Shown here piece by piece: positions 23,721 to 44,828 of a DNA stretch of 64,000 nt (the stretch's first letter is position 1; every line of letters starts with the position of its first letter). This DNA comes from Cylindrotheca closterium (taxonomy: Eukaryota; Bacillariophyta; Bacillariophyceae; Bacillariales; Bacillariaceae), in assembly GCA_933822405.4 (NCBI GenBank), contig CAKOGP040002069.1:164951-228950 (forward strand), written 5' to 3'. A program made the translations under genes and the position numbers. The notes beneath the pieces are model-generated. The model was not told the DNA's origin. It saw only the letters and a list, made by a program, of their open reading frames with translations, and did not search any database.

Positions 23721-24311
23721 TTATCTTGCCGATAGGAAGGAGCCTAACGAGTGTCTTGGCTGTCTGCGTTTGTGCAGTGCAAATAGGTTATCACCTGAGG
23801 ACTTGCGCGTCGGTTTGCATAGTGCAGTATCTCCTTGGCTTGACGTGCTGAGTCGATGGAGGAGATTGGATCCTCGACGAACCGGTGACTGCTCGGATGT
23901 GATCACATCAAAGACAGCATTTGACGACGACTCGTGAACGCTGGTGCTTTGCTCATCACCAGTAAGACTCTCCCATGATAGTCGGCGTTCCGGTTTTCGC
24001 AATGGGACCTTGGAGTTGACTCTACTTGAGTCATCAAAGCGCGAATGCTGGGAAGTAAATGACATATCTAGAAGGTCAATTCCGTCTAGGACGGCCAGCA
24101 GAGCACTGGTATCCAACTCATTTGATTTGCTTGTCTCTTCCCGTGTTTGAGGCTCCCCAGAGCATCGCTCTCGAAGCACCATCATCGAAATCAGACTCGG
24201 GACACCACCTTCCTTCTTGCAGGCTTGAGAAAGCTCCATCTTGTTAGTCTTCGATGGCAACTTGCTTGAAGCACTAGGGAAGCAAAGATCTTGGCTGGAG
24301 TTTACAATCAT
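23721..24311 (-). CDS. RKxS-family protein 6 (unknown function)
   Basis: 196 residues; an internal start at 24239 (MELSQACKKEGGVPSLIS) would match the family N-terminus better. It contains GVPSLISMMV, a predicted helix ALLAVLDGIDLLDMSF, VPLRKPERRLSWESL, SSNAVFDVI, then CKPTRKSSGDNLF. The helix resembles the ILDEVLDIL core of the ILDE family. It is divergent from the ILDE gene at 24979, making it the first head-to-head pair in the cluster. Confidence 0.8.
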   Translation of the reverse strand: MIVNSSQDLCFPSASSKLPSKTNKMELSQACKKEGGVPSLISMMVLRERCSGEPQTREETSKSNELDTSALLAVLDGIDLLDMSFTSQHSRFDDSSRVNSKVPLRKPERRLSWESLTGDEQSTSVHESSSNAVFDVITSEQSPVRRGSNLLHRLSTSSQGDTALCKPTRKSSGDNLFALHKRRQPRHSLGSFLSAR

Positions 24312-24978
24312 GTTCTGTTCTACAGTAGCTATGATGTGTGATGATTGTAGACCGGAAGGAAAGTGAACAAAACGGATATTTTATGATGGAAGGTCGTTGA
24401 TCAGAAACCAGAAGGGCCATCAAGACGGAACTAATTGTCACGGTTATCGGTGGAATGCTGTTTACACCCTCGCAAGACAAATCTGCAATCCCAAATTGGA
24501 GTTGATTTGGTCATAAGGAGAAATGAAAAGCTCCTTCCATCACCGAATAAAAGAGTGTCAATTTGATCTTATATGTGGAAAGCCTGTCTTCATGCGGTTC
24601 TTTCAACCAACGAACCGGGACTTTTCCCTCATTTACAGATTGAACATTCGTTTTGTGAGCTTGAGCTCGGTGATACTTAGTGAACAAAAAAGAGCTTCTT
24701 CTAATTTGCTAGTCCTAACGGCCTGGCCGCTATGATGCGAAACGGGACTCTTTTTCCCCGTCTTCTGAAGCATTTTTTGATTTAATAATGATTCCAATAG
24801 TGATTGAACCTCAAAGGAACGGTAAATCAATGTACATGATATAAAACAGTACCGGTAGTGATTTGAAATTAAAAAAAGTGAGTAGCGAAAGATGGAAGGC
24901 ATTATTCTTTCTTCTACTTGGAGAGAAAGAGCTCTCTCATAATTTTGTACTGAAAGAAGTCAATTGACAAATATACTG
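24312..24978. promoter_or_regulatory. Divergent spacer between RKxS gene 6 and ILDE gene 1
   Basis: This 0.67 kb spacer must hold both promoters. The inverted-repeat block of the later cassettes is not obvious here, in line with this pair being older. Confidence 0.4.
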
Positions 24979-25287
24979 ATGACCTCCTGTGATAGCATCA
25001 ATCAAATAGGCTCCAACGGCATTCACTTGGCCAGGAATTACTTTCTGAGGCCTTCGTCTTCCTCAAGACTGCAGCCACCATCGGGTATCTTTCATGATGA
25101 TGGTGGTGAAGTTGGATCAGGAGATATCAACCGCAGCCGCCTTTCATCCCCTCGAAACAACACCGAGCACCTTGTGGAAATCTTGGATGAAGTCCTGGAT
25201 ATATTAAAGGAAGACTTCGATACGATTCAAAGGCTTGGTGCCAAGAGTAAGAAATCAAGAGACGTTGGTTATCAACGAAAACAGTGA
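24979..25287 (+). CDS. ILDE-family acidic protein 1 (unknown function)
   Basis: 102 residues starting MTSCDSINQIG. The diagnostic core is EHLVEILDEVLDILKEDFD, an amphipathic acidic helix, preceded by a Ser/Arg-rich stretch (SRLSSPRNN). Unlike later members it ends in a basic tail (AKSKKSRDVGYQRKQ) and has no poly-Asp run. It is the most diverged member and forms a head-to-head pair with RKxS gene 6. No known domain was recognised. Confidence 0.75.
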   Translation: MTSCDSINQIGSNGIHLARNYFLRPSSSSRLQPPSGIFHDDGGEVGSGDINRSRLSSPRNNTEHLVEILDEVLDILKEDFDTIQRLGAKSKKSRDVGYQRKQ

Positions 25288-25892
25288 CATTCATGCTGAA
25301 ATATATAATGACTGTCAAATGATCAAGACACCATCAGACTGCCACCAAGACGGGCATACTTACACTTCCTGGAAATACTGTACAGTCCATACACTGAAAG
25401 CATACACTGATATGTATTGCAACTGATATAGGAGATTGCCACGCAATTACTTCTTTCCTGTGCACAAGGAGAAGTCTCTTCTTGGATCTTACAGGAATTC
25501 CAAACATAAAATTAGGCGTATGATAAAGCTGAATGCGACAATGTTCTCTTTGTATTACTTGTTTGTATTAGCTTGCATAAAGTGTACGACATTCCAACTG
25601 ATGAGTCAAATTCTTGTCTGCGTGCAAAGGGCGAGACTCTCGAAACCTCTAGGATCTTCTCCATACATAGAAAGTAAGCGTACAGTATAATCTAAGATTT
25701 GAAATATATCTGATACAGTTGAATGCGAAAGGTGTTCTTCCTATAGCTTAAGGTGAAGTATCTTGGATCTTCTATGACCTCCAAACAGAGAGCAGCATAC
25801 AATCTAAGATTACTAAGTCAAATCTGATGCAGTTGAATGATGAGACAATGTTCTTTCTAATTGTTAAAAGCGATAGTGTTCTTGGTTTCATG
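25288..25892. other. Intergenic, convergent 3' flanks
   Basis: Spacer between ILDE gene 1 and RKxS gene 7. It contains two diverged copies of a CTTGGATCTT..CTAAGATT type segment (about 25482-25700 and 25760-25820). No gene was seen. Confidence 0.4.
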
Positions 25893-26663
25893 TTATTGCA
25901 TCGTCGCGTATTTCTTGTCCATGGACAATCTTCGAACGGGTTTCGACAAAATGTCCGTGGTGGCGGCTTCAATCAAGGTTGACTGAAACGCTGGTTTCGA
26001 AAGAGAGAGGCAGGAGTTGTATGGGGAGGTCATAGAAGCCCCTTGCTTGTTTCCTTGCTTTAAATTCTTGTAAGCTTCTTTGTCTGGGGAAGACATGTCA
26101 ATGGAGCCCTTTCGCACAGGTTTGCGAAGAGTCTTGAAAACGGAGTTCTTGGGGGACCTGGATGATTTGTCTTCCCACTTTTCGTCATTAACGTCAGTAG
26201 GAACCGATTGGGCTCGTCGCATCTTGTCCGTTGGCATCGGCATCTTAGGTAATGCCGATCCTATACCATATCCCAAATGAATCCGTTCTTCGTTTCTTCG
26301 GATGACTGCATCAAATGGCGAGGTTTCCTTCTTGATTGGCCGGTCAAAGGCAGCATTTCGCATCGTGGGGAGTCCCTCCAATGACTTCTTTCGTTCTGGC
26401 TTCAGGATTGGCATGGTGGAGTACTCCTTACCGAGCTGTTTTCTTTCGTGCTTGGATGATGCTTTCAAAGCTGCATCAATACCATCCAGAATGTTCAAGA
26501 TCTCTTGTGCACGGGTTCGTTTCGGGATAGTAGCCTTGAATTCAGTGGAGTTGTTCGCTTCGCTGTCATCTTCGAAAGTAATGACCGAAACACAGCTGTG
26601 GTTATCCCAGGCCTGTACATCCTTTGGGACGCCTCTCTTCGCTTTGCCGGTACGGGAAACCAT
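25893..26663 (-). CDS. RKxS-family protein 7 (unknown function)
   Basis: 256 residues. It carries a helix AQEILNILDGIDAALKAS near residue 52 (compare ILDEVLDILN), then MPILKPERKKSLEGL, MRNAAFDRP, two further KP-V-R-[KR]-[GL]-S sites (TLRKPVRKGSIDM, LSKPVRRLSMDKK) and a Lys-rich middle. With members 6, 8 and 9 it forms the subgroup whose site reads K-P-[EQV]-R-[KR]-x-S. No plus-strand partner is visible upstream, where duplicated sequence and the copia element now lie. Confidence 0.82.
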   Translation of the reverse strand: MVSRTGKAKRGVPKDVQAWDNHSCVSVITFEDDSEANNSTEFKATIPKRTRAQEILNILDGIDAALKASSKHERKQLGKEYSTMPILKPERKKSLEGLPTMRNAAFDRPIKKETSPFDAVIRRNEERIHLGYGIGSALPKMPMPTDKMRRAQSVPTDVNDEKWEDKSSRSPKNSVFKTLRKPVRKGSIDMSSPDKEAYKNLKQGNKQGASMTSPYNSCLSLSKPAFQSTLIEAATTDILSKPVRRLSMDKKYATMQ

Positions 26664-26872
26664 TGTTTTGTTGTTTGTATTTTTTGTGTGGTTTTACTGT
26701 ACCGGTATACTGTATGAGGATGGATGTGCAACCGCACCGTGGCAGAAAAACGTTGCAGTTTCGGCCTGCTGACGCGGTGGGCGGTGGGGCATATATTATT
26801 TGTCAGTTTTTTGAAGTTTGATTACTGTCCGCGCGGCATTTAAAGTTGATGTTAAATGATTGCAACACGAAT

Positions 26873-27054
26873 GATCACTCTGCAAGAGCACTTTGCTTTA
26901 TTTGTTAGGGTTGAACATGCTCGAATCGAAGTGACAGACAGGTGTATTTATAATGGATTTTTTTGTACCGGTAGGGAACAGACAATCAGAGGGGCTTGCG
27001 TAACAAAAATCATGTTGTTCTCGTTTTGGCAGAGGGGCTAAGGACTCACTTGGA
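26873..27054. repeat. Pre-insertion flank, copy 1 of a duplicated segment
   Basis: GATCACTCTGCAAGAGCACT onward is repeated after the N gap at 29186-29496. The two match closely except for a 128-bp insertion in the second copy (29312-29439). Copy 1 ends exactly where the copia LTR begins. Confidence 0.9.
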
Positions 27055-27422
27055 TGTTGCAAAACCACGTTGATAAGGCTCAAACTAGGTTTTGGGGCGT
27101 TGTCAATTTGGGGTTGAATATAGATTCGTTTGAAAATCGATTTTAAAATAATTGTGAGCAGTTTGAAGACTCAAACTTCTTTTAGTCGTGCTACATTCGT
27201 CTGATCTGATCTGAACCAACTCCAACCAATCCCGCTGGATTGTTAGTTATAGAATGTTGGAGATGTAGCGTGATAGCCGTAGCTTCTACGCTGACAACTT
27301 CCTCTGATCTGATCAAGTTGGATTCGTGTTAAGTTTTCTCACCGAATCCGACTCACTCGATCACTCAGACATTCAGTCGATTCGATCAAATCTCAGACCT
27401 CAGAATCCCTGGTATTCGTTCA
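27055..27422 (-). repeat. Putative 3' LTR of a Ty1/copia element
   Basis: On the plus strand the 368-bp segment starts TGTTGCAAAACC and ends ATTCGTTCA, giving TG...CA ends. Just inside is CTCCCTCTTTT, which on the coding strand is the polypurine tract AAAAGAGGGAG directly before the LTR. The outer edge coincides with the breakpoint against the empty copy at 29496. The other LTR would lie in or beyond the gap. Confidence 0.7.
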
Positions 27423-27499
27423 CTCCCTCTTTTGATCAAATCGATGATCTTCCTATCAACCCATGATCATCTTTCTGAACTTGATGAGTAGCTCAGCGT

Positions 27500-29172
27500 T
27501 CAAAGGTTTCTCAACACGTCAGCTGGTTGCTCTTTTGCATCTATCTTGTGAATAGTAATCCCATTACCAATGTATGACCTGAAATGATGTAGCATGCAGT
27601 CTAGGTGCTTTGTTCTTGGTTGAAACTTATGCACTCTAGCAATTTCCAGAGTTCCGGTATTGTCTTCAAATACTCGGTAGTGTACCTCTGCAATTGGGCT
27701 TTCAATCGGGATTTCATACTTGATCATCTCCTTGAAAAGGTTCATGATGGGTATTGCTTCACGAAGTGAGTATAAAAGATTCCAGTGTATTCTGACTCTG
27801 TTGATGATAACGCAATCTCAGTTTGCAGCTGCGACTTCCAGACGATAGGACAACCTGCGAAATTGATGAAGTAGCCATGCCTTGATCTTGCTGTATTGCA
27901 ATCCTCATATTCTTTGGGATCCCAATTTCCAGCGAAGTCAGCATTGACGTGGACCTCCAATCCTTTCGTTCTATCAGGTTGTAGAATCAATCTTTTGTCT
28001 TTTGTGCCCTTGAGATATCGCGCCAACCATCGTACTGCCTTGCCATGCTCCTTCTTTGGGCATGTACTGAACCTTGCACACTGGTGAACAATATAAGCGA
28101 TGTCCGGCCTTGAACCCTTCTCCAGGTAGTTTAATTTTCCAATGACAGATCTGTAGTGAAACGATCCATCAAACTCTGGAGAATCAGAATGTTTTGACAA
28201 CAGCTTTGATGATGCTGCTGGGATTGGTCGTGTCGCCGTGTCCTCCTGCATGTTTAGGTCCTTCAGAATCTGATCAATCAAATGTGGTTGGGTGAGGTGT
28301 ATAGAACCGTCAGGCTTCCTTTCAATGTTAACCCCAAGAAAGTCTTGAATGTCCCCTTCATCAGTAATGTCCAGGATTTCCCCAATTTCAGCCACAACTC
28401 GGTCAATCTCGGCTTGATCGGGTCCCGCAAGAATGGAGTTGTCTGTGTACAAAACTTACATCACATTTCCTTTGTAAAAGACACATTCATCGTAATTGGA
28501 TTTCTTGAATTCCAATTTATCGACGAGAACCTTCGTCAAATATTGATACCAGACTCGGCTTGCTGCCTTTCCTCCATAAATGTTTTGATGCAACTTTAAA
28601 ATGTATTCGTTACTGTTTCCATCGACAACTTTGAAACCAGCTGGAAGCTTCATGTAGAGCTCCCTCTCAACTGGTGCTTGCGGAAATGCCAGGACATAGT
28701 CGATCTGCTTGGTTTTCCACCCAAGCATTGCAGAGACAATCAGAAGAGTTCGAATCGAGTTCCAACTTGCAACTGGTGCATATGTTTGGTCGTAGTCTTG
28801 TCCATATTTCATCTTGGACCCGTCAAAGTTCAATCTTGCTTTGTACTTTTTGACTTCCCTCGTTCGAATATCTCGTTTTTGTTTCATTTGCCATACTGTT
28901 GGAAAGATTGTAGCTCCCTCTGGAACTGATGTCCGATGGATGATTGAGAAGTTCTCGTTCTTGAGTTGGTCTTCCCATTCCTTCTTCATCGCCTTTCAAA
29001 ATTCACCTGCATCCTTCTCACGCATAGCTTCATGCATGTACATCGTGTCAGGGTCAGAGGTTGCCTTGAAAATCTTCAACGGATCCTGCTTGGCTTCTCC
29101 AGAGTAAGCTGGGAACATTGCTTGGAAGCAGAATATTTCACCTTCAATACATTTCTTTGTGGCGTTTGATAG
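27500..29172 (-). pseudogene. Copia pol remnant (reverse transcriptase-RNase H), stops and frameshift
   Basis: Reverse transcriptase is recognised from KYKARLNFDGSKMKYGQDY, TYAPVASWNSIRTLL, QIDYVLAFPQAP and LYMKLPAGF. RNase H is recognised from HGYFINFAGCPIVWKSQLQT, ALSSTESEYTG and KHLDCMLHHFR. It cannot make one protein. There is an in-frame TGA near 29000, an in-frame TAA at 28456-28458 just before the YTDN box (normally YVDD), and a one-base frameshift near 27750, between the ESEY and FKEM parts. The second catalytic Asp of the YxDD box also reads Asn. Confidence 0.9.
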
Positions 29173-29175
29173 CTC

Positions 29176-29185
29176 NNNNNNNNNN
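29176..29185. other. Assembly gap (10 N)
   Basis: Ten N bases separate the truncated copia element from a second copy of the pre-insertion sequence. The gap size is likely nominal. Confidence 0.99.
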
Positions 29186-29496
29186 GATCACTCTGCAAGA
29201 GCACTTTGCTTTATTTGTTAGGGTTGAACATGCTCGAATCGAAGTGACAGACAGGTGTATTTATAATGGATTTTTTTGTACCGGTAGGGAACAGACAATC
29301 AGAGGGGCTTGCCGTATCTCATCGGTCCTTGGACACTCATGGTGGCAGGACAAGAGATCGAGTTCAGAGCCTTGACAATCATTGACCTAGTGACCAACTT
29401 AGTCGAAATTGTGCGCATTAAGGACAAAACGTGTGCGAACGTAACAAAAATCATGTTGTTCTCGTTTTGGCAGAGGGGCTAAGGACTCACTTGGAT
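29186..29496. repeat. Pre-insertion flank, copy 2 (without copia, with a 128-bp insertion)
   Basis: Repeats 26873-27054 and then continues into unrelated unique sequence (ACTTTTTCGGGC) where copy 1 has the LTR. This is the pattern expected of the unoccupied allele or an unoccupied paralog. Confidence 0.88.
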
Positions 29497-30071: not shown

Positions 30072-30794
30072 TCATGATTTCTTCCTACGAGTCGACGAGT
30101 GAGTCGATCTGGAATGTGCGGATCGACGAGGGGAATGTGCAGATCGATGCGGAGAATGCGGACCAATGCTTGACTTTCGCGTTGGCTTCTGTAGGGTCTC
30201 TGTCATCGAAGGAGAGGACCATTTGGCACCCACAGATGGCACGGAATAAGCGGAACCTTCATCCGCATCTGTGATCGAACTGTCTTCTGGAAGGTCATCG
30301 TAGCCCCCGCGCAAACTCTCTTCATACTCTACATAATCCGAATGGTACTCGTCGCACTCAGGTGCCTCTATGTGATCGAAGACAGCGTTCAAGGCAGATT
30401 CGATGTGAGAATAGTCTTCCACTGAATCTTTCCGTTGTGGTTTGAGCAACTGCATAGACGAATTTCGTTTTTCACGCTCGTCTCCAAGAGCATTAGTTCG
30501 TTTCGTGTGTCTTTTCTTATTCTTGCTGGTTCCACCATTCTCTGGCAAGTCCAATTCTAATAAAAGCCTCGCAAAACCGCTTGCGCTATTCGTTGTCTTG
30601 TTACGGGTGTTTCTGGTTGGAGTCGTCCTCGTGGGCGTATTTATTCGAGGAGATTCGAAAATGGAATCATCGCCATCTCCTCCAATCGTCAACATGGAAA
30701 CGAGTGCGTCACAGGACTGAGGTGCATGTATCTTATTCCTCTGGGGGAATGGCAGAGGACTGCTATGGTCAGCTAGTTTCGAGTGGTTATCCAT
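30072..30794 (-). CDS. RKxS-family protein 8 (unknown function)
   Basis: 240 residues from MDNHSKLADHSSPLPFP, a start shared with members 9, 11 and 12; in-frame upstream codons reach 30851. It contains ALVSMLTIGGDGDDSIFESP, Thr/Arg repeats (TPTRTTPTRN), a helix GFARLLLELDLPE, LLKPQRKDSVEDYSHIESAL, NAVFDHIEAP, an acidic region and TLQKPTRKSSIGPHSPHRSA with an Arg/Ser/His-rich tail. Basic phosphosites alternate with acidic blocks. It is divergent from ILDE gene 2 and is the first of the modern cassettes. Confidence 0.85.
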   Translation of the reverse strand: MDNHSKLADHSSPLPFPQRNKIHAPQSCDALVSMLTIGGDGDDSIFESPRINTPTRTTPTRNTRNKTTNSASGFARLLLELDLPENGGTSKNKKRHTKRTNALGDEREKRNSSMQLLKPQRKDSVEDYSHIESALNAVFDHIEAPECDEYHSDYVEYEESLRGGYDDLPEDSSITDADEGSAYSVPSVGAKWSSPSMTETLQKPTRKSSIGPHSPHRSAHSPRRSAHSRSTHSSTRRKKS

Positions 30795-31170: not shown

Positions 31171-31473
31171 TTAGGGCCTGAAAGAAATATCATTCAATAA
31201 ACCCACTTCAAATTATTTGTCAGAATGATGCATCGTATTGCACTTCAATCAAAGCGAACCCGCATTCCAGCTGATCGCCACTATTTTGTCTGATCAGATT
31301 TTAATGTTTTGTTTACCTCCTCGTGTCAACGAACCGAACTATTCATTCTTCCGATCAGAACAGCTGAAAGACTCGCCGTAACCAAAACCGCAATTCCCAA
31401 TGCAAATTCACATCACTCTATGCTCACAAATCAGCCAGAAGCAGTTACGAAACAGCAACCGATACTATCAATC

Positions 31474-32298: not shown

Positions 32299-32808
32299 TC
32301 AATCTGCAGATCGATGGGGAGAATGGGGAGCATAACCAAGGCTCGACCTTCGCACTGGCTTCTTGAGGACCTCGGTCATCACGTGTGTTGACCATTTTGC
32401 ACCTGCTGCAGACGGGATGGAACTTTCTTCACAATCCCACTGGCACCCGGCACCCTCAGGTGCCTCAATGATGAGATCGAAGACAGCATTTAGTGCTGAT
32501 TCGAGATGAGCCAAGTCTTCCATTGACTTTTTCCTTTGGGGCTTCATCATGGGCATGGAAGAATTTCGCTTTTCACGAAGCAGCCGCTCCTCGTTACCAA
32601 GAGTAGCATTGACTCTTTTTGTGTGTCTATCGAAGAGGAGCTTCGTAGGAGATTCATCCAAAATAGAATCATCACCATAATCCTCGCCAAGGGTCAACAT
32701 GGAAACCAGTGCGTAGCAGGACTGCGGTGCATGTATCTCATAGGGAAGTGTCTTCTGGGGAAATGGCAGAGGGCTGCTATCGTCAGTTAGTGTCCATCGG
32801 CAATCCAT
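32299..32808 (-). CDS. RKxS-family protein 9 (unknown function)
   Basis: 169 residues from MDCRWTLTDDSSPLPFP; an ATG seven codons upstream (MQRLKEN) is also possible. It contains HAPQSCYALVSMLTLGED, DDSILDESPTKLLFD, MPMMKPQRKKSMEDLAHLES, NAVFDLIIEAPEG and VLKKPVRRSSLGYAPHSPHR. It is shorter than member 8 through loss of the Thr/Arg-repeat region. Head-to-head with ILDE 3. Confidence 0.85.
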   Translation of the reverse strand: MDCRWTLTDDSSPLPFPQKTLPYEIHAPQSCYALVSMLTLGEDYGDDSILDESPTKLLFDRHTKRVNATLGNEERLLREKRNSSMPMMKPQRKKSMEDLAHLESALNAVFDLIIEAPEGAGCQWDCEESSIPSAAGAKWSTHVMTEVLKKPVRRSSLGYAPHSPHRSAD

Positions 32809-33039
32809 ATTTTCCTTCAGTCTTTGCATAAAAGTGACCCCAATTGTCGTCAACAATTTCTCGTCAAAATACCGTCTGGTCGAAACCATAACTGCGCTTA
32901 CCTACCGGTACCTGGTACCGTTTACGTGTACTGGTATTTTCAAATGTACATGCGGTCCGGTATATTGTCTGTTCGGATCACGAAGAACCCTTATCATCCT
33001 CAGGTCGCGAGACGTACAGTGTGAGCTGTATGCACGGGC

Positions 33040-33125: not shown

Positions 33126-33507
33126 CTCCCAAAAGAAATATCAGCACTGTGTACATAATGTACCGAATTGAACACAATCATAGAAATGCTTAAAGCAGAG
33201 AAGCCAAATAAATTATCTGATCAAACATTTGGATTCAACGTGAAACGAATTTTGTAATACAGTGGCGTTCTTCAAGAATATCCGCCTTCTTCTTTTCAAG
33301 TTGCGAGCACTATGTATTAGCTAGGTAGACATATAAAAACATTGTGTTTTTAAAGTTCGATGGCGAAAAGACACCTCGGACGAAACCTAAAGGACTCTAT
33401 AGTGCGCAAACAAATCCCAGCATCAGATTTCATAACCAATTGCTCTCACAAATCAATATTTGCCACTTGAATCAATTGCAAGTTACCAAACACCAACCAA
33501 TATCATC

Positions 33508-33771
33508 ATGACTCAATCCAACAACAACTTGAAACAAGCGTCGCCAAATCGCCGCCCAATGTCATTGAAGTCTTCTGTTTTGCAAAATATGATGCCATCT
33601 TCCGACTTACTCCCCCGTCGTGCTCCTCCAAAGAATGATTCACCACAAGAACGAAGTGCCTTTGTGATTGGAATCTTGGATGAAGTCCTTGACATTCTGA
33701 ATGACGACATCTTTGACGACGAGGATGATCTAGTCTTCGACACCAAGTCAAACCGCCGGTTGTCTCAATAA
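33508..33771 (+). CDS. ILDE-family acidic protein 3 (unknown function)
   Basis: 87 residues, MTQSNNNLKQASPNRRPMSL head, MMPSSDLLPRRAPPKNDSPQ, then ERSAFVIGILDEVLDILNDD and FDDEDDLVFD, ending NRRLSQ. The RRPMSL site, the DLLPRR turn and the acidic helix are at the same spacing as in ILDE 2. A second R-x-x-S-like site sits at the very end. Confidence 0.84.
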   Translation: MTQSNNNLKQASPNRRPMSLKSSVLQNMMPSSDLLPRRAPPKNDSPQERSAFVIGILDEVLDILNDDIFDDEDDLVFDTKSNRRLSQ

Positions 33772-34149: not shown

Positions 34150-34990
34150 CTAGGAGTAGTTCTATACTTGCAGTTCCGAAACGCCGTTACATAGACTGGA
34201 TCATAGGCGATTTCTGAATAGTCAATCAGCAGATTTTTGACGACAACCCGATCAGAACTTTGGAGGCTTTGGGTCTAGTTTTGTTGTCATACTGTCTTTG
34301 TTGCTCTTTTTTGGCAGTGACATTTGCATTTCCACCATCGGCATTAGGATCGTTATTATTTCCATCCCCGCCATGATTCAACACCATTGAATCGTCCATT
34401 ATTGTTGCTGCCATTTCAACATCATTCCAAGTTTTACAGCCATCCGCTTCTTGATTTCTTGCAAGGCAGAGTTGCAAAGCTTCCACCACCGTCCTTGGCG
34501 GAGTTGCGATTGTTTCCATTCGTGTCGGATTTCGTGAATCTCTTGCAATACCCTGGATCTTCTTTCTTGTTGTCGCCAAAGTCTTCCGACTCGTTGTCAT
34601 TGTTTCCAATGCTGCCATCCATATCAAACCCGATGCCACTGAGGGTTCCAAGACATCCTTCCGATAGTTCCACCCCTTCGACCATCAAGTTACCCTATAC
34701 TTTCGCTTTCGAGCCATTCTCAGTAGGGTATGGAGCTGTCGTCTTGTTGGTGTTGGTTGCCATCACGCCAATCCGCAGTCCATGTCTGCTGCTGGTTCCA
34801 TTATTTGGCAGTAAGTCCAATTCGAGTAATAAACTCTCGAAGGAAAGGATTCATTCTTCTTCACAAAATATGACTCATCATAGCATAGGAAGACTGCGAT
34901 GCATGTACTTCATTAGGGGTTGTCTTCTTTTTTGAAATGACAGAGGGCCGCTGTGTGGTCAAGCAGCGTCCATCAGCAATCCATCATATG
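34150..34990 (-). pseudogene. Chimeric pseudogene: RKxS 5' part joined to a fragment of the 45-48 kb gene
   Basis: The upstream part (about 34780-34990) keeps the start region and first codons of an RKxS copy (GACAGAGGGCCGCTGTGTGG, compare GGCAGAGGGCTGCTGTGGTC in gene 11) with frameshifts. The downstream part (about 34150-34700) is homologous to exon 2 of the gene at 45151-47860. It matches the coding sequence for GLIQIVAL, the EIQEAQHEW-LVEALKL stretch, DDPMVVD and the DPKSQSFARDVVKNLLIDYP region. A 141-residue ORF (34226-34651) is left by chance. This is the slot where the RKxS partner of ILDE 4 should be. Confidence 0.75.
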
Positions 34991-35529: not shown

Positions 35530-35535
35530 ATAATA
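35530..35535. repeat. Left ATAATA direct repeat of Crypton
   Basis: ATAATA is present once in the sister empty site at 41502-41507 and twice around the element (35530-35535 and 39615-39620). Confidence 0.85.
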
Positions 35536-35753
35536 TAGAGTTATTACTGTATATATATATGTCCGTATGTCCCGTCTGCGTGCTTAATGTACTGCGGCTA
35601 CGGCAGGAGCATCCCAAAGTTTGTCCTAGCTACCGAGCGATAAATAATGCATCAACTGGCGGGTCACGCCCGCCTCCGCGCACATCTCACAGTGGTGCTG
35701 TGTCGGTACGAAATTCTCAACTCACACATGAACATCACAAATCACAACCCATC

Positions 35754-35999
35754 ATGAAGCAAGGCAACAAGCAAACAACAACAACACTCCAAGAAGAACT
35801 AAAAAGAGCATTGAAAACGCTGCAAGAAGCGAGGCTGCGAAAGGCAAAGGCAGATGACGAATTCGATTTGGCATCTGCTGAAGTTGCTGCCCTCGCCATG
35901 CAGCAGCTTACGACAACAAGGAACTCGCAGGCAACTAAAGTTGTGAATAATTCTACTTGTAAATGTAGCGAATGCGAAATAGTTATATGCGAAATATGA
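35754..35999 (+). CDS. Small coiled-coil protein inside the Crypton (putative)
   Basis: 81 residues from MKQGNKQTTTTLQEELKRAL. The middle is a strongly charged predicted helix (LQEELKRALKTLQEARLRK then ADDEFDLASAEVAALAM), and the end has CKCSEC. It lies opposite to the recombinase gene in the left part of the element. No family was recognised. It may be an accessory gene, captured host DNA or a chance ORF; the coding-like composition favours a gene. Confidence 0.45.
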   Translation: MKQGNKQTTTTLQEELKRALKTLQEARLRKAKADDEFDLASAEVAALAMQQLTTTRNSQATKVVNNSTCKCSECEIVICEI

Positions 36000-36678
36000 A
36001 TATCGCTTTACTTTATCTATGTGTGTCTATATGTGTGTGTATATTTGCATCGTGCCTTGTTTGTTGAAATGATACCATTTCGACTTGTCTGAATTTACAT
36101 CACTTGTAAGGCACCAAAATCACCGGTTCTGCCCCCTCTTTCGCGTTCGCTTCGCGTTCGAGAATAGCCTACGGAGAGGCTTTTGTTTTTTTCATACTTA
36201 GAGAAAAAGAACAATAAAGCAAGACTAACCAATTAAGGCATGAACTATTTTCGGTGTAATTGTTTCAGACTTTTCTGTAGAGAGTCAGTATCGTTTCAAC
36301 AGGTGCGATTTTTTTGAAGCATGAAAAATCAAAAAAAACGAGATGGAAGTCAATTTGTTTACGCGTTTTGCGTAGAACTGCGATTTGTACTGAGCTCTCC
36401 AAAAATGTTCCTGCCGCTCTAAGGCCTTTCATTACCAACTCCATGTATCAGCTCTACACAAGGCTACGAACGAAGGATATTGAGGGGAGGCTGAACATAC
36501 TGGAGGGGACGATTTCGTTTTCTCACCTTGGTGAAGAATTTTCTCAAAAACAAAGGACAATGGCACAAGGATGGCCTTTTCACCATGATAGAGTCTTTGA
36601 AACTCGCTAAAAACTTGTATTCCAATAGATAAAAAATGAACTAATAGATTATGTAAGCAAAGCTGTAAGCAAAGCTGT
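36000..36678. other. Crypton internal spacer, no supported gene
   Basis: AT-rich sequence between the small plus-strand ORF and the end of the recombinase gene. A 98-residue plus-strand ORF (36314-36610) has no recognisable feature. Confidence 0.4.
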
Positions 36679-39339
36679 CTAAGTATCTGATCTTCGTCCG
36701 CGTCGTGCGTGAACTGGAATCCAATTCTTATTTTGCAAGTACTGCACGAAACTTCTCATGTTTTTGTTCAAATCCACCGCATACTTTTCATTCCATTCGT
36801 TGCAAACCGAGTCGATCGACTTGGATTCGGCTTCAGACTTCTTTTTAATCGCAAGACAAATCCTGCCTTGTCTTGAGACGCGTTGTTGTATGTTTTTTCC
36901 CCTCCATTTTGCGCCGTGCAACTCCTCCAAAGCGGCAACTCCTCCAGCCATTGGCATGTCCTTGTAGTTTCCTAGGCCGTGCCATTCGTCCCACATACCT
37001 TTTAGATTGTTGTGTTGCGATTCAAACGTAAAACTGCGAATTTGTTCCGTCAGATGCAGGGGATTCGCAGCCGCCGCAATTGTTTGTTGTTGCATTGCTG
37101 GAAGTGCTGGAAATGCTGATGGTGCGGTAGCGGTAGCACTCCGCATATCTCCGACCATCGATGTCATTCCGCTGAGTAGCGACTGCCATGTTGCGAGCAT
37201 CGTGTCCCGCATAATCGCCGCCTGCCATGTTGCGAGCGTCGTGTCCCGCATCATCGCCGGGATCGCCTCCCTCAAATCATTTACATCTTTCTTTACTTCC
37301 ATTATATCTTCTCCGTTTCGCCGAACGCCCTGCCCCAGGCTGTTGAAATGCTCAATGACGCCGGGAAGCACAGCGTCAACGGTGGCAGTTCGCACCTCAA
37401 CAGCATGCGACAATTCCAGTCGCATTTTCGCTGTGTATTCCTGAGAAAAGGGGTCGTGTTAGAAGACAAGGAAAAGCAACAAGCAACAATCAAACAGTAC
37501 AGTACAGTGGAACTTACCAGGAATAACTGATTGCGGAAGAGCTCCGGAAAGGCCTGGAAAAACATGTGGCCATCGCACCTTTCCGGATGCAGGACCTTCA
37601 TTGCCGCCGCGTCCTGCAGGATGATTGTTCTGAGCCGCAAGAGCATTTCTAAGAAACCCCTGGCGGTTCCTAAATAGTATCCACCCATGCGACTGCCCTT
37701 GCTCTTGCAAGCCGCCTCAACTTTTTCCAATGCACGATCCGCGAAGGGGAAAATTTTCTTCTCAAGTTCTTCAGGTGGAACAACCAACGCTCGCGGATTG
37801 TAGTACCGCCCCTCGCTGGTTGTAAACCCGGCAGCGGCTCTCATTGCCTTGAGTGGCAGATGGGTGCTGTAACACTGGTCGCGGATGTTGACCGCCCAGT
37901 TGCCCAACATTCGAATAAACTCTTCGTCAATCTCTAGGTACTGAAGATTCATGTTTCCAAACAGCCTTCCAAGGTGCTGTAAATGTGTGGATGGAATGCC
38001 CAGCTTACCTAGAATCTCCCTCATTGAATCGCTGAAGTTCTTTGGCTTGATGGGCCTTTTCCGCCCTTCCTCGGCAGTTTCGGCTCCATTGTGTGTTCCG
38101 AATGATACCAACAGCTTGATATCATACCACGCACTGTTGTCGGTGAAGTCTGGGCAACGATCTTCCTCGAACTCGCCAGAAAGTTTGAAGCGAGACAACA
38201 AGTAAAATCCGAGAGCTCCGATCGGGCATAATAGTACGTTCTTGTGACGCATAGACCGTCCGTAGAACACCTTGCCCCTATTTGTTTTGCCATCACACAT
38301 TTGCATGATTAAGCAATCCCAATCTTGAGACTCTTTAGCTTCGTTCCGACCCTTAATTAGAAAGCAATCAGATAATTCCGCAGAATGTAGACTTTCCATA
38401 CGAAGAACACCACTCAAGGTAAATAAAAACATTAAGCGATGTCTTTGTCATAAATAAACATTAGAGCCATATATAAAATCTCAGACAATTAAGGAACAAA
38501 CAATTTTCGTACCTAATTGAACCAAATGCGTTTCGAAGAGTGGATTTGGTGAAACCCTCCCTCCACATCTCCTCCTCGATGAGCTTGTCTTTCCCTTTCC
38601 CCTTCAACAGGGTATGGTCAGGGTTCATCTTCTCCTTGTGGTGCACTTTTTTCATTACCCCCTTGCGCCTTTTCACTAGCAGTTCTAAATCCTTGCACCA
38701 GGGAGTCCATATTTCCTGGTTCCAATCCAATCCAGTGGTTTTGTTTCTCAAGTTTTTTTCGTGGAGTTTTTTTATCGCACATTTGTACTGATTGAAACAG
38801 TCGTACCCTGGCGACGAACCCTCGCCCTCTGGTAAGTCACCAAAACATAAATGCGGTGGCACATGGTTTGTGTCCGTGTCCGGTGATCCTCGCGTTGCGC
38901 TCCAAATTCGGTTGTATTCCTCAAGATTGAAGTAACCACTGGTGCCTTTTTTCTTTCCACGTGGTCTCACTTGGCGATGAACAACATAATAAAAAAATTT
39001 ATACACTTTTTCAAAGGTGACATGACATGGGACGGGATCGTCACCGTAGACTACCCTGCAAAACTCCAAAAATTCAGCCTCTTTGGGCTCGTAGGCTGCT
39101 TTCGTATTGGGTTTTGCAATGGCATCGAGCACGTTTCCAACCCATTGCTGATGTTGTTGCAGTTGCGACTGGGCTTCAACATGCCTCGCACCATCCGCCA
39201 GCGCCTGGCCTGGCGAGCGATTATACGGCTGTTGCTGAACAATTTCAGTACGACCCACACCAAATTGAGGAACAACCATAGTCACTACGGCAACTACAAT
39301 TTTATGATTTCCAATCACCGCATTGGTGCACCGTATCAT
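36679..39339 (-). CDS. Crypton tyrosine recombinase (Ndc10-like core, GCR1-like C-terminal domain)
   Basis: Exons 38513-39339, 37518-38412 and 36679-37440 join in frame (AG|T codon, then phase 0) to give 827 residues. The N-terminal ~270 residues contain a SAM-like core-binding region (NTKAAYEPKEAEFLEFCR...FEKVYKFFYYVV). The catalytic part shows Arg in SGVLRMESLHSAEL, the His/Arg pair in STHLQHLGRLFGN, Arg in FIRMLGNWAVNIRDQ and the likely nucleophile Tyr in QCYSTHLPLKAM, in the R..HxxR..Y order of tyrosine recombinases. ARALVVPPEEL-like and IFPFAD runs match the Ndc10/CBF3 domain. The C-terminal exon has WDEWHGLGNY...GGVAALEELHGAKWR, a GCR1_C-type DNA-binding domain usual in Cryptons. The start at 39339 is the first ATG in frame. 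No disabling change was seen, so the protein may be active. Confidence 0.88.
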
Positions 39340-39479
39340 AGGCCATTTGCCTTCCCCCAAAATTGGCTCGAACTTGACGATTCCAGCACAGTCGCCGTCT
39401 TTGAGCAGTTTGATGCAGGACGGGAGTATCAGAACGGTCTGCCAGTCCTACGGAATGGACGAAATGACGTCAGTGAGCA

Positions 39480-39554
39480 ATTAATAACGGGAGTTATTAA
39501 TGGCTCGATGCGTCATCGAGCTGTCAGGGCCATAAGTAAAATAACAGTTATTTT
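39480..39554. repeat. Three consecutive perfect inverted repeats near the Crypton right end
   Basis: ATTAATAAC-(4)-GTTATTAAT at 39480-39501, GCTCGATG-(3)-CATCGAGC at 39503-39521, and AAAATAAC-(1)-GTTATTTT at 39538-39554. All arms are perfect. They lie 60-135 bp inside the right end, in the promoter side of the recombinase gene. Confidence 0.85.
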
Positions 39555-39614
39555 CAGCTCGAATTTAGGGCCCCGGCACTAGCGGACTGCAGAAACCTTT
39601 AGTCCCAGGTGAAA

Positions 39615-39620
39615 ATAATA
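39615..39620. repeat. Right ATAATA direct repeat of Crypton
   Basis: Second copy of the ATAATA hexamer that flanks the element. Confidence 0.85.
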
Positions 39621-39701: not shown

Positions 39702-39977
39702 ATGTCTACTCAATCCAACAACACCATGACCCAATTGTCACTAAGTCGCCCCCAAATGTCACTGAAGTCTTCTTTGCACAAGATGCACAAGGTGATGCCG
39801 TCCTCCGACTTGCTTCCGTGTGCTCCTCCAAAGGATGATACACCAGAAGAACGAAGCGCCTTCGTGATTGGAATCTTGGATGAAGTCCTTGACATTCTGA
39901 ATGACGACTTGTTCGACGACGACGACGATGACGACGACGATCTCGACTTCAACACCAACTCAGACCGCTGGTTGTAA
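39702..39977 (+). CDS. ILDE-family acidic protein 4 (unknown function)
   Basis: 91 residues, MSTQSNNTMTQLSLSRPQMS head, SSLHKMHKVMPSSDLLPC, then ERSAFVIGILDEVLDILNDD, nine consecutive Asp codons (mixed GAC/GAT) and NTNSDRWL. Its native promoter is now 4 kb away because the Crypton entered 166 bp upstream of the ATG, so expression may be changed. Nearly identical to ILDE 5. Confidence 0.85.
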   Translation: MSTQSNNTMTQLSLSRPQMSLKSSLHKMHKVMPSSDLLPCAPPKDDTPEERSAFVIGILDEVLDILNDDLFDDDDDDDDDLDFNTNSDRWL

Positions 39978-40033
39978 GAGGAGGTGACACAACCACATAG
40001 GTTTCCTGCCACTGCTACAATGTAAGACCAAAA

Positions 40034-40041: not shown

Positions 40042-40477
40042 TAGATATAGATACAATATTTCCTACAGATACACTTATTCATGAGCTCGAAGAGTATTCA
40101 ATATTGTGTACTGGAGACATGATGATGCATTTGTTCCTTGTTTACAGAACACAAAGCAATTTTAGTTTGGGAAGAGGGTCATGTATCCTGCTGCCGATAC
40201 CCGTACTATTAGTACTCGAATTACACTACTCGATATTGAATATGGCTAGTCTAGTTAATTATGTAGAGAGATATTTGTCCCGTGTAAAAGTAACTATACG
40301 GCAACTTATTGTCTATTCTAATGATAAATGAATCTGTATCGAATAATATTTGTATCTAGATTTAGTTTCAATGTGGCTTTACATTATGCCACGGCAAAAT
40401 TGTACTTTGTCTCTTGGTGGGTTCAACAGGCCATGTGACTCGGTGATACCCTGAAAATTGTCTCGGACTGTCTCCTG
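40042..40477. other. Convergent 3' flank ILDE 4 / RKxS 11
   Basis: No gene seen. The sequence is conserved between tandem copies apart from small indels, for example 40216-40260 versus 42103-42130. Confidence 0.5.
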
Positions 40478-41035
40478 CTAATGCGCTGATTGATAGTGAG
40501 AATGCGGAGCATAAACAAGGCTCGACCGTCGCACTGGCTTCTGTAGGACCTTGGTCGTCACAGGTGAGGACCATTTCGATTCTGGAACTTCATCGTTGAA
40601 GTCTCCGTGCAAACTTTCAGCATAATTCCACTGGCAATCGTCACCCTCGGTAGCCTCAATGATATCGAAGACAGCGTTGAGGGCTGATTCGATGTGAGAG
40701 AGGTCCTCCATTGATTTTCTCCTTTGCGGCTGCAACATAGGCATGGAAGAATTACGGTTTTCACGAAGGACGAGTCGCTCCTCATCTCCAGAAACAGTGG
40801 TCCCTTTCGCCTGCCTGTTCTTGTTCTTGTTCTTGTTGATTGCACTCGTTGGCAAGCCCGATTCGCATAAGAGGCTGGCAGGAGATTCTTCAAAAATAGA
40901 ATCATCATCGTCCCCAATGGTCAACATGGAAACCAGTGCGTAGCTGGATTGTGATGCATGTATCTCATTGGGAAGTGTCTTCGTGGGGAATGGCAGAGGG
41001 CTGCTGTGGTCAGCTAGCGTCCAACGGCAATCCAT
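40478..41035 (-). CDS. RKxS-family protein 11 (unknown function)
   Basis: 185 residues from MDCRWTLADHSSPLPFP; MMQT at 41047 is an alternative start. It contains ASQSSYALVSMLTIGDDDD, SIFEESPASLLCESGLP, INKNKNKNRQAKG, MPMLQPQRRKSMEDLSHIES, NAVFDIIEATEGDD, a short acidic stretch, VLQKPVRRSSLVYAPHSH. Both phosphosite motifs and the NAVFD motif are kept at member 9 spacing. Head-to-head with ILDE 5. Confidence 0.87.
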   Translation of the reverse strand: MDCRWTLADHSSPLPFPTKTLPNEIHASQSSYALVSMLTIGDDDDSIFEESPASLLCESGLPTSAINKNKNKNRQAKGTTVSGDEERLVLRENRNSSMPMLQPQRRKSMEDLSHIESALNAVFDIIEATEGDDCQWNYAESLHGDFNDEVPESKWSSPVTTKVLQKPVRRSSLVYAPHSHYQSAH

Positions 41036-41143
41036 GGTTTGCATCATTGCATTAAAAAGTGAGACTATATTTTATAATTGTCGAAAATGCCAGTTCTCCA
41101 AAGAACCTAACGTATTGCACACCCCTGATTACAAACTCAATTC

Positions 41144-41214
41144 TTCGAGGGTGATGGTATCCCCGAAAACACCACGGTACTCAATAATACACCGAAGGTT
41201 AAGTTGAACTTCGG
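41144..41214. promoter_or_regulatory. Bidirectional promoter block, RKxS 11 / ILDE 5
   Basis: GGGTGATGGTATCCCCGAAA..CACCACGGTACTCAATAATA followed by the inverted repeat CCGAAG-(11 nt)-CTTCGG at 41192-41214. Confidence 0.75.
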
Positions 41215-41588
41215 CGTAAGGTCCCGACACAAATATCACAATTGGGTACCCAATGTACGTTACTGTACCGGACACAAATGGTCAAGAAGAGAGGCTAATT
41301 GACATAATCTGATCAGACTGTACACAAACCGAACTTTTCTTATCAGTCTTGTTCTCCAAGAACATCGGCTTTCTGTCTTATCGATTAAAGGGCATGGGTT
41401 CACATAGACATCGACATGGCAGAAAGACACCCGTCGTCACAAAATTGCGGTAAGGGTGCCGTTCTGTCCAAAATTCCGGGATAAGATTTCACACCCCCAT
41501 TATAATACCCATCACATTGCTCTCACAAATCCATACTTCCAGCCACCAGAAGCAATTGCCAGTTTACCAAACACCAACCAATCCTATC

Positions 41589-41864
41589 ATGTCTACTCAA
41601 TCCAACAGCAGCATGACCCAATTGTCACTAAGTCGCCCCCCAATGTCACTGAAGTCTTCTTTGCACAAGATGCACAAGGTGATGCCGTCCTCCGACTTGC
41701 TTCCGTGTGCTCCTCCAAAGGATGATACACCAGAAGAACGAAGCGCCTTCGTGATTGGAATCTTGGATGAAGTCCTTGACATTCTGAATGACGACTTGTT
41801 CGACGACGACGACGATGACGACGACGATCTCGACTTCAACACCAACTCAGACCGCTGGTTGTAA
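41589..41864 (+). CDS. ILDE-family acidic protein 5 (unknown function)
   Basis: 91 residues and nearly identical to ILDE 4 (head MSTQSNSSMTQLSLSRPPMS, otherwise the same core ILDEVLDILND and nine-Asp run). This copy keeps its original promoter and the uninterrupted ATAATA site where its sister received the Crypton. Confidence 0.86.
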   Translation: MSTQSNSSMTQLSLSRPPMSLKSSLHKMHKVMPSSDLLPCAPPKDDTPEERSAFVIGILDEVLDILNDDLFDDDDDDDDDLDFNTNSDRWL

Positions 41865-41920
41865 GAGGAGGTGACACAACCACATAGGTTTCCTGCCACT
41901 GCTACAATGTAAGACCAAAA

Positions 41921-41928
41921 TGTAAATA
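41921..41928 (+). promoter_or_regulatory. UGUAAAUA element in ILDE 5 3' flank
   Basis: TGTAAATA in the same context as in ILDE 4, at the same distance from the stop. Confidence 0.55.
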
Positions 41929-42355
41929 TAGATATAGATACAATATTTCCTACAGATACACTTATTCATGAGCTCGAAGAGTATTCAATATTGTGTACTG
42001 GAGACATGATGATGCATTTGTTCCTTGTTTACAGAACACAAAGCAATTTTAGTTTGGGAAGAGGGCCATGTATCCTGCTGAAGATACCCGTACTTTTAGT
42101 ACTCGAATCACACTACTCGATATTATGTAGAGAGATATTTGTCCCGTGTAAAAGTAACTATACGGCAACCTGTCTATTCTATTCAGTTTTCTACTAATGA
42201 TAAATGAATCTGTATCGAATAATATTTGTATCTAGATTTAGTTTCAATGTGGCTTTACATTATGCCACGGCAAAATTGTGCTCTGTCTCTTTGGTGGGTT
42301 CAACAGGTCATGTGACCCGGTGATACCCTGAAAAATTTTCTTGGACTGTCTCCTG

Positions 42356-42913
42356 CTACTGCGCTGATCGAAGGTGAGAATGCGGAGCATAAACAAGGCT
42401 AGACCTTCGTACTGGCTTCTGTAGGACCTTGGTCGTCACAGGTGAGGACCATTTCGATTCTGAAACTTCATCGTTGAAGTCTCCGCGCAAACTTTCAGCA
42501 AAATTCCACTGGCAATCGTCACCCTCGGCAGCCTCAATGATATCGAAGACAGCGTTGAGGGCTGATTCGATGTGTGAGAAGTCCTCTATTGATTTTCTCC
42601 TTTGCGGCTGCAACATAGGCATGGAAGAATTACGGTTTTCACGAAGGACGAGTCGCTCCTCATCTCCAGAAACAGTGGTCCCTTTCGCCTGCCTGTTCTT
42701 GTTCTTGTTCTTGTTGATTGCACTCGTTGGCAAGCCCGATTCGCATAAGAGGCTGGCAGGAGATTCTTCAAAAATAGAATCATCATCGTCCCCAATGGTC
42801 AACATGGAAACCAGTGCGTAGCTGGATTGTGATGCATGTATCTCATTGGGAAGTGTCTTCGTGGGGAATGGCAGAGGGCTGCTGTGGTCAGCTAGCGTCC
42901 AACGGCAATCCAT
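42356..42913 (-). CDS. RKxS-family protein 12 (unknown function)
   Basis: 185 residues and nearly identical to member 11. The differences seen are a few substitutions (RRKSIEDFSHIES for RRKSMEDLSHIES, EAAEGDD for EATEGDD, AESLRGDFNDEVSES, and SHLRSAQ at the end). They fall in linkers or conservative positions, and both R-R-x-S sites and NAVFDII are untouched. Head-to-head with ILDE 6. Confidence 0.87.
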   Translation of the reverse strand: MDCRWTLADHSSPLPFPTKTLPNEIHASQSSYALVSMLTIGDDDDSIFEESPASLLCESGLPTSAINKNKNKNRQAKGTTVSGDEERLVLRENRNSSMPMLQPQRRKSIEDFSHIESALNAVFDIIEAAEGDDCQWNFAESLRGDFNDEVSESKWSSPVTTKVLQKPVRRSSLVYAPHSHLRSAQ

Positions 42914-43023
42914 GGTTTGCATCATTGCATTAAAAAGTGAGACTATATTTTATAATTGTCGAAAATGCCAGTTCTCCAAAGAACCTAACGTATTGCACAC
43001 CCCTGATTACAAACTCAGTTCTT

Positions 43024-43092
43024 CGAGGGTGATGGTATCCCCGAAAACACCACGGTACTCAATAATACACCGAAGGTTAAGTTGAACTTCGG
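43024..43092. promoter_or_regulatory. Bidirectional promoter block, RKxS 12 / ILDE 6
   Basis: Same block as 41144-41214, with the inverted repeat CCGAAG-(11 nt)-CTTCGG at 43070-43092, continuing GCGTTTTCAAGGTCCCGACA. Confidence 0.75.
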
Positions 43093-43460
43093 CGTTTTCA
43101 AGGTCCCGACACAAATATCACAATTGGGTACACAATGTACTGTACCGTACACAAATGGTCAAGCAGAGAGGCTAATTGACATAATCTGATCAGACACACA
43201 AACCGATCTTTTTTATCAGTCTTGTTCTCCAAGAACATCGGCTTTCTGTCTTATCAATTAAAGGGCATGGGTTATTCACATAGACATAGACATGGCAGAA
43301 AGACAACCCTCTCGACACAAAACTGCGGTAAGGGTGCCGTTCTGTCCAAAATTTCCGGGATCAGATTTCATACCCATTACCCATCACATTGCTCTCACAA
43401 ATCCATACTTCCTGCCACCAGAAGCAATTGCCAGTTTACCAAACACCAACCAATCATATC

Positions 43461-43730
43461 ATGTCTACTCAATCCAACAATACCATGACCCAATTGTCAC
43501 TAAGTCGCCCCCAAATGTCACTGAAGTCTTCTTTGCACAAGATGCACAAGGTGATGCCGTCCTCCGACTTGCTTCCGTGTGCTCCTCCAAAGGATGATAC
43601 ACCAGAAGAACGAAGCGCCTTCGTGATTGGAATCTTGGATGAAGTCCTTGACATTCTGAATGACGACTTGTTCGAAGACGATGACGACGACGATCTCGAC
43701 TTCGGCACCAACTCAGACTGCGGGTTGTAA
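43461..43730 (+). CDS. ILDE-family acidic protein 6 (unknown function)
   Basis: 89 residues. The head and core match ILDE 4 and 5, but the acidic tail reads FEDDDDDDLDFGTNSDCGL. The Asp run has lost codons, as expected for replication slippage in GAC/GAT repeats. The ILDEVLDILNDD core is unchanged. Confidence 0.86.
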   Translation: MSTQSNNTMTQLSLSRPQMSLKSSLHKMHKVMPSSDLLPCAPPKDDTPEERSAFVIGILDEVLDILNDDLFEDDDDDDLDFGTNSDCGL

Positions 43731-43787
43731 GAGGAGGTGACACAACCACATAGGTTTCCTGCCACTGCTACAATGTAAAAACCAAAA

Positions 43788-43795
43788 TGTAAATA
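43788..43795 (+). promoter_or_regulatory. UGUAAAUA element in ILDE 6 3' flank
   Basis: TGTAAATA in AAAATGTAAATATAGATATA after the stop. Confidence 0.55.
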
Positions 43796-43913
43796 TAGAT
43801 ATAGATACAATATTTCCTACAGATACACTTATTCATGAGCTCGAAGAGTATTCAATATTGTGTACTGGAGACATGAATCATTTGTTCCTTGTTTGTTCAG
43901 AACAGAAAGCAAG

Positions 43914-44594
43914 TAAGGGAGATTTTTCTCCCTCTCCTTTCATTGAAAAAACTGGGACGTTCGTCTTCAAGACGATACATTTTTACTTCAGCTATCCTTG
44001 GTAGAGGAAAGGTACTATAGAGTTGGATTGTAAAGAACATTTGTCATTTCACCCTACTATTCTATGGTCGCGAGATGTACGGTGGAAGTCACCATACCCA
44101 TGGCATAGTTGCGATTAGATCCGCATGACGCAAACTCTACAGGCTAAATTGGTACTGGTCGCTGATTACAAACCCCTTCCTTGGGGGTTGTTACAACTCT
44201 CCAAAAACATGACGGTACTCAAATCACCGAAGGTATCTTGACCTTCGGGATTTTTAAAAGGTTGAAGCAAAATCACAACTGAGTGCACATGTACCTGGTA
44301 CGGTACCGAACTACCCACAGGTTCAAGAAGAGCGGCTAACTGACATCTCTGATCAAATACGAACCGAATTCCTCCAGGCTATCGGTTTCTGTGTGTTCAA
44401 TTAAGGTACACGTATATTGTAGACAAAACGACACTCGTCCGACAAAACTGCGGTACTCTACCGGTACTCGCGTGCAAAATTCCAGGATTAGATTTCGTAC
44501 ATCACACATCACCCATCACGACATATTGCTCTCACAAATCAAGATTGCCAACCAGAATCAATCGCCAGTTTACCAAACATCAACCAATTCTAGC
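43914..44594. promoter_or_regulatory. ILDE 7 upstream region; RKxS partner missing
   Basis: This has the spacer features of the other cassettes, including AACTCTCCAAAAACATGACG near 44193 and a perfect inverted repeat CCGAAGGT-(6)-ACCTTCGG at 44227-44248. It also has the GAGCGGCTAACTGACAT and CTCACAAATCAAGATTGCCA words before the ATG. No RKxS coding sequence can be found between ILDE 6 and this block, so the divergent partner has been lost. Confidence 0.65.
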
Positions 44595-44828
44595 ATGACT
44601 ACTCAATCCAACAGCAACTTATCACGAACGCAATCATCGTCGTTATTGAATTCTGCTATGCACAAGATGATGATGTCATCTTCCGACTTGCTTCCCCGTC
44701 GTCGTGCTCTTCCGAAGGATGATTCACCAGAAGAACGAAGCGCCTTTGTGATTGGAATCTTGGATGAAGTCCTTGATATTCTGAATGACGACATCTTCGA
44801 CGACGATCTCCTCCTCGATGCCAAGTAA
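44595..44828 (+). CDS. ILDE-family acidic protein 7 (unknown function)
   Basis: 77 residues, MTTQSNSNLSRTQSSSLLNS head, MMMSSSDLLPRRRALPKDD, then ERSAFVIGILDEVLDILNDD and IFDDDLLLDAK. It lacks the RRPMSL site of members 2 and 3 and the long Asp run of 4-6. It is the only modern member without an RKxS partner. Confidence 0.83.
   Translation: MTTQSNSNLSRTQSSSLLNSAMHKMMMSSSDLLPRRRALPKDDSPEERSAFVIGILDEVLDILNDDIFDDDLLLDAK

Follow-up and report, generated by a model that had tools for sequence, protein, structure and literature searches.

A head-to-head pair of RKxS and ILDE genes inherited as a unit in the diatom Cylindrotheca closterium

We describe an array of divergent gene pairs in the diatom Cylindrotheca closterium, each pair consisting of one member of a gene family here called RKxS, on the minus strand, and one member of a second family, ILDE, on the plus strand. 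The window, by which we mean the whole 64-kb stretch of DNA that was analysed, belongs to contig C517 of the 47.6-Mb genome. The results show that the divergent pair has been inherited as a head-to-head unit through several duplications. We give about an even chance to the interpretation that the two genes are a co-regulated pair whose products, a disordered kinase-substrate-like protein (RKxS) and a small helical protein (ILDE), act in one pathway, with docking as their likeliest contact.

The array and its copies elsewhere in the genome

A preliminary description of this DNA, made from the letters alone, had claimed five head-to-head RKxS/ILDE pairs, and all five are intact where it placed them. 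They are labelled p1 to p5, and the distances between their start codons are 667, 679, 618, 541 and 535 bp, respectively. A sixth pair (p6) is interrupted by an insert, and an ILDE gene at 44595, which had been described as lacking a partner, indeed has a spacer of the pair type and no RKxS.

23721..24311, minus strand, RKxS of p1, 196 amino acids (aa)
24979..25287, plus strand, ILDE of p1, 102 aa; the most diverged ILDE within the window
30072..30794, minus strand, RKxS of p2, 240 aa
31474..31713, plus strand, ILDE of p2; an additional in-frame ATG at 31420
32299..32889, minus strand, RKxS of p3
33508..33771, plus strand, ILDE of p3
34890..34990, minus strand, RKxS remnant of p6 (N-terminus); frames broken
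39702..39977, plus strand, ILDE of p6; separated from its own spacer by the insert
40478..41047, minus strand, RKxS of p4
41589..41864, plus strand, ILDE of p4
42356..42925, minus strand, RKxS of p5; 96% identity to the p4 RKxS
43461..43730, plus strand, ILDE of p5
44595..44828, plus strand, partnerless ILDE; pair-type upstream spacer retained, RKxS absent

Pairs p4 and p5 represent a recent tandem duplication of a 1.88-kb unit. Each ILDE gene of the array is divergent from one RKxS gene and convergent with the next, so that the array by itself leaves the unit's phase ambiguous; isolated copies on contigs C134 and C558 are head-to-head, and the phase is therefore settled as head-to-head. That the pattern of the array exceeds chance is confirmed by the ratio of nonsynonymous to synonymous substitution rates (dN/dS), which is below 1 between non-recent copies where it is computable, by the agreement of the distances of the two families, and by homologues outside the window.

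The copies outside the window come from genome searches with single proteins, which give lower bounds. On C134, an RKxS gene of 229 aa and an ILDE gene of 87 aa lie head-to-head, 829 bp apart. The C558 pair was reached via its ILDE match alone; an RKxS-type open reading frame (ORF) lies on the other strand at a distance of 801 bp, with a second RKxS-type ORF behind it. The nearer ORF matches a profile of the six paired RKxS at E 0.012, and at 3.4e-5 when three outside homologues are added (1388 ORFs); it has one clear P-x-RK-x-S site, no NAxFD box was seen in it, and only the N-terminal part of the C558 ILDE is readable in the genome copy. An excerpt of one study defines a head-to-head pair by starts within 1 kb of each other (PMC7817982), and all of these pairs fall within that distance when measured from ATG to ATG (535-679 bp in the window, 829 bp on C134 and 801 bp on C558).

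Across six pairs, the protein distances of one family follow those of the other with a Mantel r of 0.99, a value reached by 1 of 720 permutations, namely the true pairing. What this agreement demonstrates is that the two genes were inherited together, and not that their products interact. Synonymous distances (dS) between C134 and the array amount to 0.96-1.31 for RKxS and 1.46-1.92 for ILDE.

RKxS and ILDE are real proteins under purifying selection. Among non-recent copies for which dS is computable, RKxS has a dN/dS of 0.32-0.44 (nine comparisons, p2-p5 and C134) and ILDE one of 0.19-0.80. Comparisons that involve p1 or an unpaired RKxS gene at 25893 are saturated, except for one ILDE comparison (0.30). 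Near-identical copies are uninformative: the ratio is 0.70 for RKxS p4-p5, with four synonymous changes, and 2.14 and 1.33 for ILDE p4-p5 and p5-p6, with one synonymous change each, and ILDE p4-p6 has none. A profile of the seven window ILDE genes matched 20 proteins at E <=1, 14 of them not from the window; one match is from the MMETSP0017 set of Cylindrotheca closterium, MMETSP being a transcriptome project. Another ILDE relative, P0018 of the same species, matches C558 at 95% over the aligned part. For RKxS, three of eight matches lie outside the window at E <=0.1, and in a wider search five of eight at E <=1, of which one was already known and one, P0029 (C. closterium), proved identical to the C134 RKxS protein when the two were read side by side.

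The region between the two genes

Two short elements recur at similar positions in the spacers.

31289..31298, unstranded, palindrome TCTGATCAGA in the p2 spacer; further TCTGATCA at 33216, 35344, 41308, 43185 and 44348
31423..31432, plus strand, CTCACAAATC, 51-67 bp before the ILDE ATG; also at 33445, 39635, 41522, 43394 and 44531

Between 330 and 150 bp before the ILDE ATG, the sole 8-mer common to p2, p3, p4 and 44595 is TCTGATCA with its complement, and between 100 and 30 bp the sole 10-mer common to the same four is CTCACAAATC. Both are present in the same intervals at C134, where 30 of 5000 single-base shuffles match for TCTGATCA and 2 of 5000 for CTCACAAATC, both intervals having been chosen after the sites had already been seen. 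CTCACAAATC alone is retained at a lone ILDE gene on contig C19 and therefore resembles an ILDE core element. At p1, TGATCAGA is found elsewhere, 87 bp before the RKxS ATG. A palindrome, TACCGGTA, occurs 23 times in the window.

The two families and neighbouring elements

The preliminary description called both families undescribed, and this stands, as neither has a credible match in Pfam or the PDB. For ILDE the best Pfam match, in one of 19 members, has an E of 0.045; for RKxS there was none up to E 1 in nine members and none up to 0.1 in a separate scan. Scans of viral contigs confirmed no relative of either family. Among the literature matches listed on diatom head-to-head pairs, bidirectional promoters, disordered lineage-specific genes and Phaeodactylum divergent pairs, none concerned RKxS or ILDE in the excerpts at hand, and no literature match came up for the ILDE string or for the name of the transcript.

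At E <1e-3 in the last profile round there are 19 RKxS-type ORFs, 12 in the window, one on C134, two on C558, one on C212 (counted once despite two fragments) and three on C361; the outermost members are less certain because Ser and basic residues abound in the iterated profile. The window also holds a doubtful candidate at 13597, and its unpaired members are the following.

14733..15515, minus strand, unpaired RKxS
16576..17118, minus strand, unpaired RKxS of a tandem group
18262..18975, minus strand, unpaired RKxS of the tandem group
19732..20403, minus strand, unpaired RKxS of the tandem group
21396..22082, minus strand, unpaired RKxS of the tandem group
25893..26663, minus strand, unpaired RKxS; no ILDE; an element like those with long terminal repeats (LTR-like) ~210 bp upstream
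57678..58838, minus strand, unpaired RKxS; relative on contig C212

The four tandem same-strand relatives at 16576-22082 are a separate subfamily with a VPSLIF-like N-terminal box, and the three RKxS-like ORFs of C361 (L042 4963-8726) are also in tandem. The LTR-like element beside RKxS 25893, at 26873-29312, has identical 127-nt ends and frames that look copia-like by eye; an ILDE gene was looked for beyond it and none was found. When plus-strand ORFs of at least 35 aa in eight upstream stretches were searched for a small divergent partner dedicated to the unpaired RKxS genes, only self-hits were obtained.

An NAx[FW] box is present in all 12 window members, together with one to three P-x-[RK][RK]-x-S sites; four other ORFs of 467, including 13597, have the site without the box. 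In an alignment of six members S112 and S176 are invariant. Basophilic kinases recognise the consensus R-[RK]-x-S, which is present in RKxS with a conserved Ser, and these Ser sites are candidate targets of such a kinase. The product had been described as basic, which fails for three of the five window pairs: net charges are +3.9, +0.6, -3.0, -8.9 and -7.1 in p1 to p5, and among the seven RKxS proteins measured they range from -8.9 to +12.1, so that the word fits the motifs and not the whole protein. The RKxS protein is predicted to be mostly disordered, the model having a mean predicted local distance difference test score (pLDDT) of 53 and two 6-residue helices.

ILDE is predicted to be a small, mostly acidic protein in which only a helix, around VIGILDEVLDILN, is modelled with confidence; the one model made has a single helix at residues 46-67 of 87, with block-mean pLDDT of 71-88. 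Of the acidic helix and Asp run attributed to ILDE previously, the helix appears in this model, and the acidic character and the Asp run do not extend to the p1 protein, which is about neutral (net charge -0.2) and has no such run. Beyond what had been noted before, we observe that 18 of the 22 ILDE proteins scored end in glutamine (binomial 4.5e-20, relatedness ignored), or 18 of 23 if the p5 protein (P0002, ending in L), which was excluded from the count, is included. The last residue is L in p4, p5 and p6 and K in 44595, and four further members on C3 and C468 end in Q as well. The preceding residue may be P, S, K, R, Q, A, T, L, N or G. The glutamine is kept in L017, L019, L020, L021, L046 and window genes despite hard-to-align preceding linkers.

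Pair-type ILDE genes number ten (seven in the window and one each on C134, C19 and C558), with a divergent RKxS that is intact in seven cases, broken in one and absent in two. More distant ILDE-like ORFs, two on C3 and three on C468, match at E 7e-21 to 0.009, and the best match is itself a member of the profile. No RKxS-type ORF was found at E 1e-3 in the stretches around them; the sole candidate partner on C468 (E 0.6) lies opposite a longer ORF, has a low-complexity look and was rejected.

The sixth pair had been described as split by a Crypton and accompanied by an RKxS pseudogene, and the sequence agrees with this. In p6 the match to the p4 spacer ends at ~35535 and restarts at ~39615. 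An ORF at 37302-38432 inside the insert matches Pfam NDC10_II at 5.3e-30; Cryptons encode a protein of this type, and the 35535-39615 insert appears to be Crypton-like. The homologies flanking it overlap by ~6 bp at the insertion point. The RKxS N-terminal remnant near 34.89-34.98 kb contains stops and frame changes and adjoins a partial copy, at 34170-34690, of an ORF at 45.8-46.2 kb.

Interpretation and comparison with known systems

The reading that we propose is of a two-gene unit of Cylindrotheca-type diatoms that would be read divergently from a shared upstream region of 0.54-0.83 kb. The left gene would produce a largely disordered protein in which a short NAx[FW] segment usually has at least two P-x-[RK]-[RK]-x-S sites about it, and the right gene a small, mostly acidic helix protein, usually with a free C-terminal glutamine. 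The shared region may co-regulate both genes, a basophilic kinase would phosphorylate the RKxS Ser sites, and the ILDE helix might dock on RKxS, or on a partner bound by both, which would be the likeliest contact. Both products would serve a single pathway and would tend to remain coordinated; the coupling would be loose, because ILDE genes persist alone too.

Several observations weigh against this proposal, and many of them favour passive linkage, in which unrelated small neighbours of a compact genome are spread as a block by segmental duplication and evolve separately. Repeated co-duplication had been taken to imply that the products work together, which does not follow from it by itself, since both genes are copied passively whenever a 1.9-kb segment is duplicated in tandem. 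Such duplication carries neighbours along without a functional link, the 1.88-kb tandem units are of just this kind, and the agreement of distances is then expected. The preliminary description asked whether the two families always co-occur head-to-head, and would have taken genes standing mostly alone in other genomes as a refutation; within C. closterium that objection holds by half. The families are head-to-head at C134 and C558 as well, and an ILDE neighbour is present for seven of the 19 RKxS-type ORFs and absent for 12, while ILDE stands alone at 44595 and on C19, and on C3 and C468 as ILDE-only arrays. Three of the ten pair-type ILDE genes (39702, 44595 and C19) have no intact RKxS. Alignable similarity of the spacers is largely restricted to the recent array: by local alignment, likeness to p1, C134 and C558 is near chance (z <2.5 except 3.3 for p2-C134 and 4.7 for p3-C558), and in-cluster sequence after ILDE is also conserved, sometimes as well as the spacer. 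Passive linkage has against it that the head-to-head arrangement is also found at the unlinked C134, at the synonymous distances given above, and at C558, and that two upstream elements persist at C134; we hold it to be a serious but tentative alternative.

The elements themselves could reflect a shared regulator, e.g., a stress- or cycle-specific factor that binds TCTGATCAGA, with the two proteins acting in different places. TCTGATCA and CTCACAAATC are kept in position, as this explanation would have it, but both are missing from the p1 and C558 intervals, except for an 8-base piece, CTCACAAA, in the 330 bp of p1, and the presence of CTCACAAATC alone at C19 makes an ILDE core element likely. 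When the whole 330 bp is considered, a shared 8-mer turns up in 240 of 5000 C134 shuffles and a shared 9-mer in 39 of 5000, and the evidence from the elements is therefore moderate. A common regulator of unconnected proteins seems to us unlikely; a putative shared promoter for the pair is supported moderately.

Slightly less probable still, and in our opinion improbable, is a balance in which ILDE would inhibit RKxS or its kinase, or cap one of them in the manner of a pseudosubstrate, and dosage balance would keep the pair together. The repeated co-retention and the contrast of a single small helix with a multi-site basic-Ser protein suit it, whereas the three ILDE genes without intact RKxS, the many unpaired RKxS genes and the net charges do not. 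Acidity among the window pairs is strongest in p4 and p5, and this holds for both families (no correlation was computed), so the charges do not compensate; complementarity between partners was considered and not seen, and a charge-based form of the bait/inhibitor couple guessed at previously is not favoured. For a toxin-antidote or bait-inhibitor relation, the partnerless ILDE genes at 44595 and C19 fit either a harmless role of ILDE in it or the lack of any such relation.

An extension of the proposed pair would be a diatom-specific two-part phospho-switch, in which multi-site RKxS scaffolds would be written by a basophilic kinase, ILDE micro-helix proteins would be readers or caps with a C-end receptor for the conserved glutamine, and amplification of the unit would keep every scaffold variant together with its own reader; we regard it as speculative and unlikely. 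Two families without Pfam or PDB match that are amplified jointly in a diatom offer a tractable handle on lineage-specific genes. Mutations can be directed at concrete features, in ILDE the helix and the conserved last glutamine, in RKxS the P-x-RK-x-S and NAx[FW] boxes. If the products interact, the array would be a natural series of related pairs for tests of partner specificity.

An excerpt on TRIM7 describes recognition of a C-terminal glutamine (PMC9394474), and the ligands in that excerpt share with ILDE a free C-terminal Gln. TRIM7 takes a C-terminal helix, however, while the ILDE model helix (46-67 of 87) stops 20 residues before the end and the residue before Q varies, and in these respects ILDE is unlike a TRIM7-type ligand. 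Unlike the eukaryotic head-to-head pairs with bidirectional promoters, the RKxS and ILDE families are without match in the libraries searched and have many unpaired members; like those pairs, they are divergent, have start codons less than 1 kb apart and are kept through duplications. Histone H2A-H2B and the paired plant NLR genes are co-duplicated divergent partner genes. RKxS/ILDE differs from them in having no Pfam match or known complex and in the existence of partnerless ILDE genes, and resembles them in that two different families have been duplicated as a divergent unit.

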